This document shows, piece by piece, positions 2,013 to 5,132 of a stretch of DNA of 5,132 bases; the first letter of the stretch is position 1; each line of letters opens with the position of its first letter. The stretch spans positions 1 to 5,132 of the forward strand of contig JAGSHR010000146.1 of assembly GCA_029855985.1 (NCBI GenBank), written 5' to 3'. The notes below the pieces were generated by a model, which was not told the origin of the DNA, did no database searches, and saw only the letters and a program-made list of their open reading frames with translations. Source of the stretch: Candidatus Njordarchaeota archaeon. GTDB lineage: Archaea > Thermoproteota > JANJXX01 > Panguiarchaeales > Panguiarchaeaceae. The translations under genes were made by a program, and so were the position numbers.

Positions 2013-2660
2013 TTAAAGGATTTTTAACAAGTTCCATAATTGGTAAATTCCAAAGAGTACGGTAGGGATCAAAGCGGTAATGAATGCTTTTCTTAATTCG
2101 ATTTCTCTTGCATGTTTTATGGCGAAAGTCCAGATGGTAAGAGACCATGCTGTTATTGTGAGATTTATGATAAGGTTTGAGTAGATGAGGGATTTTGGAA
2201 TTAGGGAGAGCATTATAGTTTTTATTATGCTGGGATTTTGTTGTAGCTGAGCAATGGTGATTTTAGGCATTTCAGCTTTGGAGATGTAGTAGATGGACAT
2301 TGGGACGGTTATTATAGAACCGATTAAGGAGGGGAGGAAACCATAACCTGTGAATTCGAAGGTTCTTCTGAAGGAACCTTTACCATCGAAGAAAGAAGAG
2401 ATGCCGTGCATTATCACCGCCAGTATTAACCAGACGGCAAATATGCCGATGAAGGAGCCTATTATCCCTATGTAAGCCCCAACGAGGAAGAATCTGGCCA
2501 ACTCGGATGGGAAAGCTTGTGATAGCTTGTCCATTAGGAAATACTGATAAGTTGCCAAAATCACTGCCAGTAACAGAACTATTACCAACGGTTTCCTTAT
2601 CCTAACCTCTTTTTGTTTTAGCTCCTCGAAAAATGCATTCGGATTTGTTATTAGCTTCAT
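2013..2660 (-). CDS. Yip1-family multi-pass membrane protein
   Basis: This 215-residue integral membrane protein has a short cytoplasmic N-terminus, LITNPNAFFEELKQKEVRIRKP, followed by about five membrane segments (roughly 24-42, 57-85, 105-126, 160-180 and 190-212). The opening motif NPNxFFEELK, the arrangement of helices, and the FTGYGFLPSLIG stretch (103-114) are typical of prokaryotic Yip1-domain proteins. Their molecular role is poorly known. It is the first gene of the minus-strand operon and lies 13 nt before the surface-protein gene, whose ribosome site fills that gap. Association with an ABC transporter suggests a role in assembling or gating the export complex, but this is inference. 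GGATGGGG lies 5 nt upstream of the ATG as a moderate ribosome site. Confidence 0.8.
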   Translation of the reverse strand: MKLITNPNAFFEELKQKEVRIRKPLVIVLLLAVILATYQYFLMDKLSQAFPSELARFFLVGAYIGIIGSFIGIFAVWLILAVIMHGISSFFDGKGSFRRTFEFTGYGFLPSLIGSIITVPMSIYYISKAEMPKITIAQLQQNPSIIKTIMLSLIPKSLIYSNLIINLTITAWSLTIWTFAIKHAREIELRKAFITALIPTVLFGIYQLWNLLKIL

Positions 2661-2765: not shown

Positions 2766-2782
2766 GGAAATCTTTATATATT
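2766..2782 (+). promoter_or_regulatory. BRE/TATA promoter of the plus-strand cassette
   Basis: GGAAATCTTTATATATT combines a purine-rich BRE-like element (GGAAA) with a strong TATA box (TTTATATA, centre near 2777). Transcription would start near 2803, giving a leader of about 25 nt. It diverges from the minus-strand promoter about 50 bp away, so both operons could be controlled from one 167-bp region. Confidence 0.65.
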
Positions 2783-2815
2783 TGCTGTGGTAAAACTTAT
2801 CAAGGATAAGGTTGA

Positions 2816-2820
2816 GGAGG
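2816..2820 (+). promoter_or_regulatory. Ribosome binding site of the 99-residue peptide gene
   Basis: GGAGG lies 7 nt before the ATG at 2828. It is the only full GGAGG ribosome site among the genes of the window and fixes this start. It suggests the small peptide is made at a high level. Confidence 0.7.
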
Positions 2821-2827
2821 GGATAGA

Positions 2828-3127
2828 ATGTATGCCCACGTGAGTAGGGAAGAGTGGTTGTTTAGAGGTCTCGCCATCGCTATGTGCCTGGCTATGTTAG
2901 GATTGGCTGTGATGCCTTTGGCTGTTGGCGATATAGTTGGAGGACTGTATATAGCGGGAGTTGTGAACGACAGAGGTGCTGTGGCTGCTGGACTTGTTGG
3001 TGCTGGATGGTCAGCAATAGGTAGTGGTATTTGGGCACTTTACGGAAATGAAGTAGTTCTGTTAGGTTTAACTGGCGCTACGCTAGGTGGTGCCATACTT
3101 ATTGGTGTTGGGATAGGATTACTATAA
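2828..3127 (+). CDS. Hydrophobic Gly/Ala-rich small peptide, candidate circular-bacteriocin-like precursor
   Basis: This is a 99-residue product without a family I can name with certainty. Residues 1-34 look like a leader: a polar start (MYAHVSREEW), then a hydrophobic helix (12-33) ending in LAVG. Residues 35-99 are about 65 residues of Gly, Ala, Val, Ile and Leu with small-residue packing motifs (GLVGAG, IGSG, LGGAILIGVGIG), few charges (D35, D48, R49, E75) and a hydrophobic C-terminus (GLL) right at the stop. A core of 58-72 residues, helix-rich, with hydrophobic residues at both ends, is the pattern of circular bacteriocins such as AS-48 and of the acidic or neutral gassericin A group. 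The SAIGSG stretch (62-67) recalls TAVGSG in AS-48. The next two genes fit that pathway. A plain small membrane protein remains possible. It has a strong promoter and ribosome site of its own, and its base composition is more GC-rich than that of the SpoIIM-family gene downstream. Confidence 0.7.
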   Translation: MYAHVSREEWLFRGLAIAMCLAMLGLAVMPLAVGDIVGGLYIAGVVNDRGAVAAGLVGAGWSAIGSGIWALYGNEVVLLGLTGATLGGAILIGVGIGLL

Positions 3128-3138
3128 AACTATAAAAA

Positions 3139-3145
3139 TTTTTTT
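3139..3145 (+). terminator. Possible oligo-U partial terminator between first and second cassette genes
   Basis: A run of seven T residues lies 12 nt after the stop of the 99-residue peptide gene. Archaeal RNA polymerase can terminate at oligo-U without a hairpin. Because the next gene follows 13 nt later with its own ribosome site, partial termination here could give more precursor message than downstream message. The motif is short and may be chance. Confidence 0.3.
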
Positions 3146-3152
3146 AGGTGAT
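3146..3152 (+). promoter_or_regulatory. Ribosome binding site of the 59-residue peptide gene
   Basis: AGGTGAT is complementary to the archaeal 16S rRNA 3' end and lies 5 nt before the ATG at 3158. It is the main support that this short frame is translated. Confidence 0.65.
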
Positions 3153-3157
3153 AATAA

Positions 3158-3337
3158 ATGTTGTCCTATTTACTTGGATTTAGTTATATGATTGTAGGGA
3201 GCTTCCTTATTTACTATGGTATGAAGGGCATTAAAAAACAAAAAGAGTTAAGCAAGCGTGATTTGCTATTACTTTCTTTTGTTACAGTAGTAATTACTTT
3301 TAGCATAGTCTTGGCTTCGATTATTGCATCGAGATAA
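3158..3337 (+). CDS. Small basic two-helix membrane peptide, immunity-like candidate
   Basis: This 59-residue frame begins MLSYLLGFSYM and ends ASIIASR. It forms two membrane helices (about 3-20 and 36-56) joined by a strongly basic loop, MKGIKKQKELSKRD (22-35); the net charge is about +5. It has an AGGTGAT ribosome site, starts 30 nt after the 99-residue peptide gene and ends 16 nt before the likely start of the SpoIIM-family gene, so the three are probably one transcript. In circular bacteriocin loci the self-immunity protein is a basic membrane peptide of about 50-60 residues (As-48D1 is the well-known case), which matches size, charge and position. There is no residue-level similarity I can claim. 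It could instead be an assembly partner of the SpoIIM-family protein. Confidence 0.65.
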   Translation: MLSYLLGFSYMIVGSFLIYYGMKGIKKQKELSKRDLLLLSFVTVVITFSIVLASIIASR

Positions 3338-3353
3338 CTACTTTAGCCAGATT

Positions 3354-3959
3354 ATGAATGTACTGAAATTACTTAAAAATAATTACAAAATCATTTTAGC
3401 ATCTGTGCTATTGTACCATATATGTATAGTTCTCGGATTTTGCATGTATCTCGCTGTAGCACCCAATATCTCTGCTACTGTTTTGGATATAGCTGTAGTA
3501 AATAATACAAAAATATATTTTATAAATGTAAGTAGCAACTTAACTTCAATATTATGCAACAATATTATTTTGATAATCCAACTAATTGGTGGTTCAATAT
3601 TATTTGGAATTCCTACATTTTGTCTGTTGATATATAATGGTATAACTTTCGGTATAATCCTTGCAAGCACTGTTGAAAGTAAAACTGCACTCAGTAAAAT
3701 TTTTCTTTTAACCATCCCTCACGGTATCTTCGAAATCCCCGCCATAATAATAGCTGGTGCTGCTGGCTTCAAAGTCCCCTATGAAATAATTCGCTATTTA
3801 GCTGGAAGGAAAGAACAAATTCTAACTAAAGAAGACATTAAGGAATACCTAACAATGGCTCTGATTTCAATAATTCTGATTATAATAGCAGCGTGGATAG
3901 AAGCTAATATAACGCTAAAGATAGCTAAGGAGATGTTAAATTCGACGAAAGGAGTTTAA
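3354..3959 (+). CDS. SpoIIM/DUF95-family membrane protein
   Basis: This 201-residue multi-pass protein belongs to the stage II sporulation protein M family (DUF95). The diagnostic stretch is IPHGIFEIPAIIIAGAAG (121-138), preceded by a long hydrophobic region with FGIP and YNGITFGIILAS (84-105). Membrane segments lie near 12-36, 64-92, 95-110, 122-140 and 167-184. In Bacillus SpoIIM acts in septal peptidoglycan remodelling, but archaea do not sporulate; other members, such as As-48C, are needed for circular bacteriocin production. Here it is the third gene of the cassette. I chose ATG 3354 (MNVLKLLKNN). A TTG at 3324 would add ten residues and overlap the previous gene by 14 nt, and neither start has a convincing ribosome site. 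The gene is AT-rich (14 G or C in 3541-3600), unlike the precursor gene, which may reflect separate origin or relaxed selection. Confidence 0.85.
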   Translation: MNVLKLLKNNYKIILASVLLYHICIVLGFCMYLAVAPNISATVLDIAVVNNTKIYFINVSSNLTSILCNNIILIIQLIGGSILFGIPTFCLLIYNGITFGIILASTVESKTALSKIFLLTIPHGIFEIPAIIIAGAAGFKVPYEIIRYLAGRKEQILTKEDIKEYLTMALISIILIIIAAWIEANITLKIAKEMLNSTKGV

Positions 3960-4135: not shown

Positions 4136-4348
4136 ATGAAGTTCAGGGTAGTTCTTGAGGAGGCTGAAGAGGGAGGGTATGTTGTTTACGTTCCGGCTCT
4201 GCCTGGATGCGTTTCTCAAGGTGAAACTAAAGAAGAGGCTCTTGAGAACATTAAGGAGGCGATAGAGGTCTATCTTGACGTTGATGAAGCAGAAATAGAA
4301 GCAGAAATTAAAGGCAAGAAGGCTGAGATTATCGAGATTATACTCTAA
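4136..4348 (+). CDS. hicB: HicB-family antitoxin (UPF0150), apparently orphan
   Basis: This 70-residue product has the compact HicB fold signature: strand MKFRVVLEEAEEGGYVVYVPALPGC (1-25), then VSQGETKEEALENIKEAIEVYL (26-47), which is the helix following the PxLPGCxSxGxT motif. An acidic, lysine-rich tail follows. HicB proteins of this kind bind and neutralise HicA mRNA interferases. It ends at the helix-plus-tail stage and has no ribbon-helix-helix or helix-turn-helix domain, so it is unlikely to repress its own promoter by the usual DNA-binding route. No intact hicA follows: the reading frame 3 nt downstream gives only MSDLKLPVVFD before a stop. It could be a solitary antitoxin, neutralise the product of the second locus, or be a relic. 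Confidence 0.88.
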   Translation: MKFRVVLEEAEEGGYVVYVPALPGCVSQGETKEEALENIKEAIEVYLDVDEAEIEAEIKGKKAEIIEIIL

Positions 4349-4473: not shown

Positions 4474-4497
4474 GTGAATTCAGCGATAAAAATGGAT

Positions 4498-4716
4498 ATG
4501 AGATACGCGGTAGTTGAATGTCCCATTTGTGGGAGATATCTTGCTGTGGACTCCAAAATCGGTTATAGGAAATGTCCTTATTGTGGTTACGTTAATAAGA
4601 TCGAAGTTTCGAGGATAGTAAAGACGTTTAAGAGTCCGAAAGAAGCTTCCGAACTCGTTAGACTGCTCAACTCCAGTAACGACTCGTTTAGACCTTTAAG
4701 CTTGAACAATGGCTAA
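4498..4716 (+). CDS. Small zinc-ribbon protein, DUF1922-like
   Basis: This 72-residue protein has two CPxC knuckles, CPIC (8-11) and CPYC (26-29), separated by 14 residues. They make a four-cysteine zinc ribbon on a short beta scaffold (MRYAVVECP, RYLAVD, YRKCPYCGYVNKI). The ribbon is followed by an Arg/Lys-rich strand, SRIVKTFKSP, and a helix, KEASELVRLLNSS (48-60). The ribbon followed by a basic strand and an EASELVR helix resembles the archaeal DUF1922 family, known structurally but not functionally. It probably binds nucleic acid or protein; no enzyme motif is seen. It stands alone between the two hicB loci. I chose ATG 4498 because the TATA box predicts a leaderless start there; ATG 4492 (two residues longer) and GTG 4474 (eight longer) are alternatives. 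Confidence 0.8.
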   Translation: MRYAVVECPICGRYLAVDSKIGYRKCPYCGYVNKIEVSRIVKTFKSPKEASELVRLLNSSNDSFRPLSLNNG

Positions 4717-4796: not shown

Positions 4797-4818
4797 GTTG
4801 ATTAGTCTACTGAAATTA

Positions 4819-5019
4819 ATGAAGCTTAACGTTGTGATTTGGAAAGAAGAGGATATGTTTGTAGTAAAGGAAGTGTTTACAGGGGTGACTACACAAGGAA
4901 AAACAATAGAAGAAGCTTTAGAGAATATTAAGGAAGCCGTTGAGTTATATTTGGAGGAACTACCAGAATTGAAAGAAGAACTGGAAAAGAAGGAGATTAT
5001 CGGTGTCATGAATGTCTAA
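4819..5019 (+). CDS. hicB: HicB-family antitoxin of an intact hicBA pair
   Basis: This 66-residue product has the HicB pattern: strand MKLNVVIWKEEDMFVVKEV (1-19), then TGVTTQGKTIEEALENIKEAVELYLEE (21-47), then a charged helix LPELKEELEKKE. It shares TQGKTxEEALENIKEAxExYL with the first copy but lacks the usual PxLPGC turn, which here is VFTGV. This is a known variant form in archaeal HicB proteins. It neutralises the HicA whose gene overlaps its last 8 nt, giving antitoxin-before-toxin order and translational coupling. Like the first copy it has no C-terminal DNA-binding domain. ATG 4819 was chosen because homologues begin MKLxVVIW. A TTG at 4798 would add seven residues that do not fit the fold. 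Confidence 0.88.
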   Translation: MKLNVVIWKEEDMFVVKEVFTGVTTQGKTIEEALENIKEAVELYLEELPELKEELEKKEIIGVMNV

Positions 5020-5132
5020 ACTTCCGAAACTCTCTGGAGAAGAAGTTATCAAAATTCTTGTAAAGAAGTTCGGCTTTAAAGTAAGCAGACAAAAGGGAAG
5101 TCACGTAACTCTAGTGAAACACGAAACTGGAA
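5012..5132 (+). CDS. hicA: HicA-family mRNA interferase toxin, 5' part (runs off window)
   Basis: Forty codons are visible, beginning MSKLPKLSGEEVIKILVKK. HicA toxins are small (60-80 residue) double-stranded-RNA-binding-fold RNases that cleave mRNA when not bound by HicB. The signature is present: SGEEVIKIL helix (8-16), FGFKVSRQKGSHVTLVK (20-36), and the catalytic His31 in GSH. So the visible half looks intact. The start overlaps the hicB stop by 8 nt. GGTG at 5002-5005 lies 6 nt before the ATG as a ribosome site. The C-terminal part, usually IPxHxxxxxGTLxxIL, lies beyond the window. Confidence 0.9.
   Translation, partial: MSKLPKLSGEEVIKILVKKFGFKVSRQKGSHVTLVKHETG

Follow-up and report, generated by a model that had tools for sequence, protein, structure and literature searches.

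What kind of product do the three closely spaced genes at this archaeal locus encode? To our knowledge few archaeal antimicrobial peptides have been described, and the original prediction had read the locus as a circular-bacteriocin-like cassette. The window (the whole stretch of DNA analysed, 5,132 nt) carries on its plus strand the ORF of a 99-aa precursor (2828-3127), the ORF of a 59-aa basic small membrane protein (3158-3337; net charge about +5 by manual count), presumed to be the cognate immunity protein, and a gene for a 201-aa SpoIIM/DUF95 protein (3354-3959; Pfam PF01944, E 2e-26). The ORF listing confirmed this predicted layout and its coordinates, with 30 nt between the precursor and the 59-aa ORF and 16 nt between that ORF and the SpoIIM start at ATG 3354, and the basic 59-aa peptide and the DUF95/SpoIIM identity of the third gene were likewise as predicted. 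The SpoIIM ORF has two in-frame starts (TTG 3324 and ATG 3354), of which we took the latter because the closest relative, at locus L085, has Met at the same position. Ahead of the precursor gene lies a promoter-like stretch with putative ribosome-binding purines (2766-2827, plus strand), comprising a BRE/TATA-like stretch, GGAAATCTTTATATAT (2766-2781), and a purine-rich ribosome site (about 2814-2823); this promoter-like block is partly common to relatives, some of them with other cores. The window's 99-aa and 59-aa proteins had no match in Pfam (E<=1) or NCBIfam (E<=5), and no peptidase or cyclase was found among the window proteins scanned in Pfam. The host of the cassette is a heat-loving archaeon.

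A conserved leader stands before unlike cores

A protein search with the 99-aa ORF returned 36 entries, the window's own and 35 others, the weakest at E 4e-5. Five others matched over the whole length (67-81% identity), and in 22 of the remaining 30 homologues the alignment covered no more than 51% of the query, in essence the leader MYAHVSREEWLFRGLAIAMCLAMVGLAVMP, which in these proteins stands before unlike hydrophobic cores. Residues A22, G25 and P30 are invariant in the alignment of the 36 sequences (A1). When genome copies were added (A3, 65 sequences), a second leader type, of the kind ...NWNEEVIKWLAVGMVLAMVGMAVMP, appeared, and M1, E9, L15, A16, L21, A22, G25 and P30 were each present in at least 90% of the sequences. 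The alignments and the DNA comparisons described below divide the window precursor into a conserved leader of residues 1-30, up to Pro30 (2828-2917), and a hypervariable hydrophobic core of residues 31-99 (69 aa; 2918-3127 with the stop codon), the presumed bacteriocin. The predicted split into leader and core thus stood, with its border moved: a core of about 65 aa and leader removal near residue 34 had been proposed, and Pro30, where the conserved part meets the variable one, fits better. Across 30 cassettes, cores counted after Pro30 were 57-78 aa long, with a median GRAVY of 1.07 and charges of -4 to +1, mostly acidic; the last residue was Leu in 16 and Ala in 6.

Between the window and L085, which share a core type, amino-acid identity was 77% in the compared part of the leader and 86% in the core, and the core gave dN 0.08 and dS 0.64 (dN/dS about 0.12). 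By this comparison the core type is under purifying selection between the two loci, which suggests that a core type is conserved once present and that replacement is the source of diversity. A chance ORF was ruled out by the same purifying selection and by the 35 other matching proteins. Within the titles, abstract starts and passages covered by a literature search there was no report of this leader/core family; a 2019 mBio survey, reportedly of archaeal antimicrobial peptides and toxins, may hold an earlier mention.

The cassette recurs in Archaeoglobales

A scan of species genomes found five loci, in three Archaeoglobaceae MAGs, one Desulfurellaceae MAG and, in decayed form, one Thermoproteota MAG. 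Within Archaeoglobales the precursor profile marked 44 places in 22 of 57 genomes (weakest E 0.008), and at 35 of the 44 a SpoIIM/DUF95 gene lay 255-800 nt downstream on the same strand. Two of the nine places without SpoIIM are at contig ends (G059:C11 and G036:C28), three have inner stops (G047, G019 and G034:1778; a SpoIIM piece lies further downstream in G047) and four have no SpoIIM within 2 kb (G006:C6, G043:C80, G043:C63 and G029:1688670). SpoIIM itself occurs in 56 of the 57 genomes, in 115 stretches. We rejected the notion of SpoIIM as a mere housekeeping neighbour, since 35 of these stretches pair with a precursor and 80 do not.

For the reading of genes, the 44 Archaeoglobales places and one in G002 made 45 (a remnant in G004 was not counted), of which 34 were taken, together with the window; the 11 excluded had internal stops, ran into contig ends or had genes that were short or broken. 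One of these 35 cassettes had no ORF and four had no SpoIIM ORF by motif, leaving 30, including the window, for statistics. In the recurring plan a leader and core are followed by small membrane-protein ORFs and these by SpoIIM, whose first part is variable and whose end is conserved. Small membrane-protein ORFs lay between precursor and SpoIIM in 27 of the 30 cassettes; the 33 middle ORFs encode 43-194 aa with charges of -1 to +14, the other three cassettes having none by our ORF filter. The expectation that related genomes keep the genes together was accordingly borne out for both SpoIIM (35/44 places) and the small membrane proteins (27/30 cassettes), and the opposing case, homologues mostly lacking a DUF95 neighbour, did not arise. 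Like cores are accompanied by like small proteins in different genomes: G009:C29 and G007:C11:12548 (71 aa each), G018 and G002 (67 and 68 aa), and G010:C27 and G007:C11:10653 (194 and 193 aa). At least three precursor places, some in tandem, were present in each of G006, G007, G029, G034 and G043, and remnants were numerous.

A wide archaeal spread of the precursor was considered and rejected: of 392 genomes in the phylum, profile A3 matched 24, including the 22 Archaeoglobales already found, and the other two matches were weak (E 9e-5 and 2.5e-4) with no cassette around them in the filtered ORF list. In the class of the Thermoproteota MAG, A3 matched one of 26 genomes, that MAG itself, where a short match lies near a SpoIIM piece (L005, 3177-4073, with SpoIIM and leader pieces). 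The Desulfurellaceae locus (L002/L053) is an Archaeoglobales-type cassette on a 3.2-kb contig, which is perhaps misbinned or else a recent transfer. Among viral contigs, 17 stretches fitted a pattern and none was a relative of the precursor. Plasmid records gave no match to the window DNA and none to the window SpoIIM protein at E<=10, the latter search being blind to distant SpoIIM because the SpoIIM-bearing plasmid of plantacyclin was among the records yet unmatched. Five loci with additional SpoIIM genes (L171-L175), from three other archaeal genomes and in some cases truncated at a contig end, had no small hydrophobic peptide gene beside SpoIIM.

The core co-varies with its partners between two DNA borders

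We compared the parts of the 30 cassettes in all 435 pairs by normalised alignment scores, with matrix permutations. The SpoIIM gene was divided into a variable N-terminal part (3354-3716 in the window) and a conserved C-terminal part that starts with PHGIFEIP (3717-3959). Mean normalised similarity was 0.56 for the leader, 0.15 for the core, 0.11 for the small protein, 0.21 for SpoIIM-N and 0.84 for SpoIIM-C. Core similarity followed that of the small protein (Pearson 0.79) and of SpoIIM-N (0.49), with 0 of 2000 permutations as high in either case; it did not follow that of SpoIIM-C (0.06, 316/2000), and leader and core were weakly correlated (0.155, 10/2000). The rank correlation was weak between core and small protein (0.19, 9/500) and absent between core and SpoIIM-N (-0.07, 377/500), because the co-variation rests on seven like-core pairs of about five core types; the like-core pairs behind the core/small-protein co-variation number five.

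DNA comparisons placed two borders around the co-varying parts. In five loci with other cores the leader-side match to the window ends at 2916, 2916, 2917, 2934 and 2936; a sixth such locus, which is a remnant, stops matching at 2883. The matches restart on the SpoIIM side at 3686-3718 in all other-core loci that match there. The Pro30 codon ends at position 2917, and the Pro codon that opens PHGIFEIP begins at 3717. With L085, of the window's core type, the match runs straight through. Among 421 pairs of cassettes with unlike cores, the distance from the end of the Pro30 codon to the end of the leader-side match has a median of 0 nt (range -40 to +28; 159 matches), and that from the PHGIFEIP codon to the start of the SpoIIM match a median of -3 nt (range -354 to +159; 428 matches); none of the DNA matches is confined to the stretch between the two points. 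Comparison of the window with G003:C6 (L087) gives what looks like a picture of an exchanged block: DNA identity is 82% over part of the YIP1 gene described below, 90% in the leader and 87% from the SpoIIM end through the HicB gene, with no DNA match between leader and SpoIIM end. L087 itself (8164-8822) lacks the first codons of its leader together with the intergenic region and the 5' part of YIP1, and so may be silent. The simplest reading of these borders would be that cassettes are swapped by recombination in conserved ends. Overall, the comparative evidence makes a swappable, SpoIIM-linked, bacteriocin-like cassette a well supported interpretation.

Neighbouring genes

Divergent from the precursor gene is a gene for a YIP1/YknW-like membrane protein (2013-2660, minus strand; Pfam PF04893, E 8e-29), a recurrent partner: of 34 cassettes, the window among them, 21 have such a gene or a piece of it no more than 1.5 kb upstream, and in 19 of these the distance is at most 300 nt. 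Three of the 13 cassettes without it have at most 240 nt of upstream sequence, and some stand behind another cassette. Further along the minus strand are genes for a CARDB-domain protein with a C-terminal hydrophobic stretch, a possible exporter partner (650-1999; PF07705, E 2e-7), and an ABC transporter ATPase (18-653; PF00005, E 6e-37). This pair resembles the accessory transporters of bacterial circular clusters. A dedicated place in the cassette was not supported for the pair: relatives of the CARDB protein occur in 54 of 57 Archaeoglobales genomes, usually away from cassettes, so that the protein is not cassette-specific. By position comparison, the window and L045 are the only two places with a CARDB relative next to a cassette; in G035 one adjoins a SpoIIM piece. 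Among the cassettes fetched, an ATPase at least 45% identical to the window's is nearby only in L045. Four archaeal loci (L167-L170) have YIP1/CARDB/ABC-like sets with no SpoIIM in the stretch shown, so YIP1/ABC sets are not diagnostic.

Downstream of the cassette the window contains a HicB-like gene (4136-4348) with no HicA gene directly after it, and a gene for a zinc-ribbon protein (4474-4716; DUF1922, E 4e-9), of which L004 has a longer relative upstream of its cassette. The stretch 4798-5132 holds another HicB-like gene, followed by an ORF from 5012 that looks HicA-like by eye and runs off the window.

A locus on plasmid pMETHO01 of Methanomethylovorans hollandica (L127, 5458-12430) encodes SpoIIM and YIP1 proteins, twin hydrophobic peptides of 66 aa and a membrane protein of 80 aa, along with a CARDB-protein relative, an ATPase and a MacB-type permease. 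Identity to the window is 37% for SpoIIM, 32% for YIP1, 25% for the CARDB protein and 53% for the ATPase; the 66-aa peptides differ from the window precursor in having no Archaeoglobales leader, and the plasmid proteins are annotated as hypothetical, not as bacteriocins. At E<=1 the 66-aa peptide had two relatives; neither PDB nor the family databases gave a significant match to it, and of 384 genomes in the phylum only its own had a strong one. Some 2 kb past the locus is a viperin-family gene. L127 is possibly a separate archaeal bacteriocin locus of similar plan.

Profile and structure searches

Comparison with circular bacteriocin profiles, suggested with the original prediction, did not support it: for the 65 precursors no circular-bacteriocin family was among the matches listed (25 of 30 NCBIfam and 25 of 36 Pfam families), the other families being single-member and weaker than E 2.2 (NCBIfam) and 0.44 (Pfam). 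The positive control, plantacyclin, matched PF12173 in Pfam (E 2e-26) and no circular model in NCBIfam. No bacteriocin family reached a meaningful E-value with the 65 precursors, the best listed being Bacteriocin_IIc (E 0.27) and E492 microcin (1.1); the glycine-zipper family PF13441 matched two of them (best E 1.6e-05). Alignment A2 gave nothing against plantacyclin in hhalign, and PDB sequence searches with the 99-aa protein and with profile A3 gave nothing significant. On the saposin-like bundle of four or five helices that the original prediction had proposed to look for, AlphaFold models were too weak to speak either way, with three helices for the full-length window precursor (pLDDT 62, pTM 0.37) and one helix for the core alone from a single sequence (pTM 0.39); a PDB fold search returned three matches (best E 6.2). 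The predicted kinship with circular bacteriocins thus retains the gene layout and the core size, and lacks a circular profile among those listed and, with mostly acidic cores, the charge.

Discussion

We consider it probable that the window genes form a polymorphic archaeal peptide-bacteriocin (archaeocin) cassette, SpoIIM-dependent, with cognate immunity, and swapped as cassettes. Bacteriocin action is likely; killing, secretion, cleavage and cyclisation of the core peptide are inferences. The conserved leader would hold the precursor inactive, hand it to shared export or maturation machinery, or both; cleavage at or just after Pro30 would then release the hydrophobic Gly/Ala-rich core (31-99), which would act on the membranes of closely related organisms. 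Cognate immunity or recognition may fall to the basic 59-aa protein and the variable half of SpoIIM, and common export to the conserved half of SpoIIM; the YIP1 protein and ABC exporter might add protection or export. The core may be a head-to-tail circle, as in SpoIIM-dependent circular bacteriocins; such closure, and the ligation of the last Leu to the first core residue that it would entail, is a guess. More specifically, Archaeoglobales may hold a polymorphic arsenal of circular-bacteriocin-like archaeocins in which core, immunity protein and SpoIIM N-half are exchanged together when recombination takes place in two conserved ends, the left of which lies at the leader cleavage site, a proposal that we hold to be somewhat less likely than not.

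The same cassette logic could serve a linear, leader-cleaved, pore-forming archaeocin that is never cyclised, with SpoIIM needed for export or immunity only. Acidic cores and the glycine-zipper matches in two precursors suit pore formers of this kind, and no circular family was among those listed; the core lengths of 57-78 aa, however, fit circular cores, the cores end in Leu (16/30) or Ala (6/30), and SpoIIM is called class-defining for circular bacteriocins in a passage of PMC13289728, so that we regard a linear product as unlikely, if a serious contender. All variable parts are hydrophobic, and SpoIIM is nearly universal in Archaeoglobales (56/57) and mostly away from precursors (80/115 stretches), as would suit variable membrane proteins with no antagonistic role, for instance a SpoIIM-based complex that varies to escape viruses or to adapt the envelope. 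We find this improbable: a signal-like leader before unlike cores, with co-varying small proteins, suggests a secreted effector and cognate immunity, and some genomes hold several unlike copies. The many remnants, and the HicB-like genes that follow in the window and the HicB- or VapBC-like genes after several relatives (as read from translations), recall a selfish addiction or toxin-antitoxin-like membrane cassette acting in its own cell and kept among HicBA/VapBC-type modules. The leader/core split and the SpoIIM and YIP1 partners point instead to export, and the toxin-antitoxin genes vary between loci, which leaves such a cassette a very slight chance.

If the archaeocin reading is right, a natural set of different cores that share a leader type and a SpoIIM C-half would separate what the common machinery recognises from the specific parts, and the set of cassettes would provide ready-made candidate toxin/immunity pairs. 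The cassette also offers a role for DUF95 proteins (arCOG01996), which a passage of PMC4158269 lists for 17 archaeal 'dark matter islands' and calls an uncharacterised membrane protein. For the maturation of circular bacteriocins, PMC8659200 states that no enzyme for cleavage and closure has been identified, even in bacteria.

Passages of published work list as parts of circular clusters a precursor, SpoIIM/DUF95, an ATP-binding protein, a small immunity protein, YIP1 and an accessory ABC transporter (PMC8534725, PMC5695211, PMC8659200), the transporter having three genes (PMC8534725, PMC8659200; SpoIIM also in PMC7132975). The clusters of enterocin AS-48, leucocyclicin Q and plantacyclin B21AG share with the window a leader before a hydrophobic core of similar length, SpoIIM/DUF95, a small protein (presumed in the window to confer immunity) and YIP1; their ABC-type accessory transporter may have a counterpart in the window's CARDB/ABC pair. 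Plantacyclin has a 33-aa leader and a 58-aa core (PMC7452424), and the original prediction gave 58-72 aa for circular cores, a range that holds the window core (69 aa if cut after Pro30). A conserved leader before a hypervariable core is the reverse of the leaders highly disparate in length and sequence that a passage of PMC6131525 reports for known circular bacteriocins. Unlike the bacterial circular clusters, the cassette has an archaeal host and mostly acidic cores. In most subgroup i circular bacteriocins the cores are not acidic in this way. YknWXYZ-type transporters likewise have an ABC ATPase near the YIP1 gene, although the window YIP1 protein matches NCBIfam YknW (E 3e-11, 43 bits) below the model cut-off of 110, and they carry a HlyD-like partner where the window has the CARDB protein. 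Polymorphic toxin and RiPP precursor families, like the archaeal cassette, combine a conserved leader with a swapped effector and cognate immunity; here, by contrast, the division also runs through the SpoIIM gene itself, whose N-half is variable and whose C-half is conserved.
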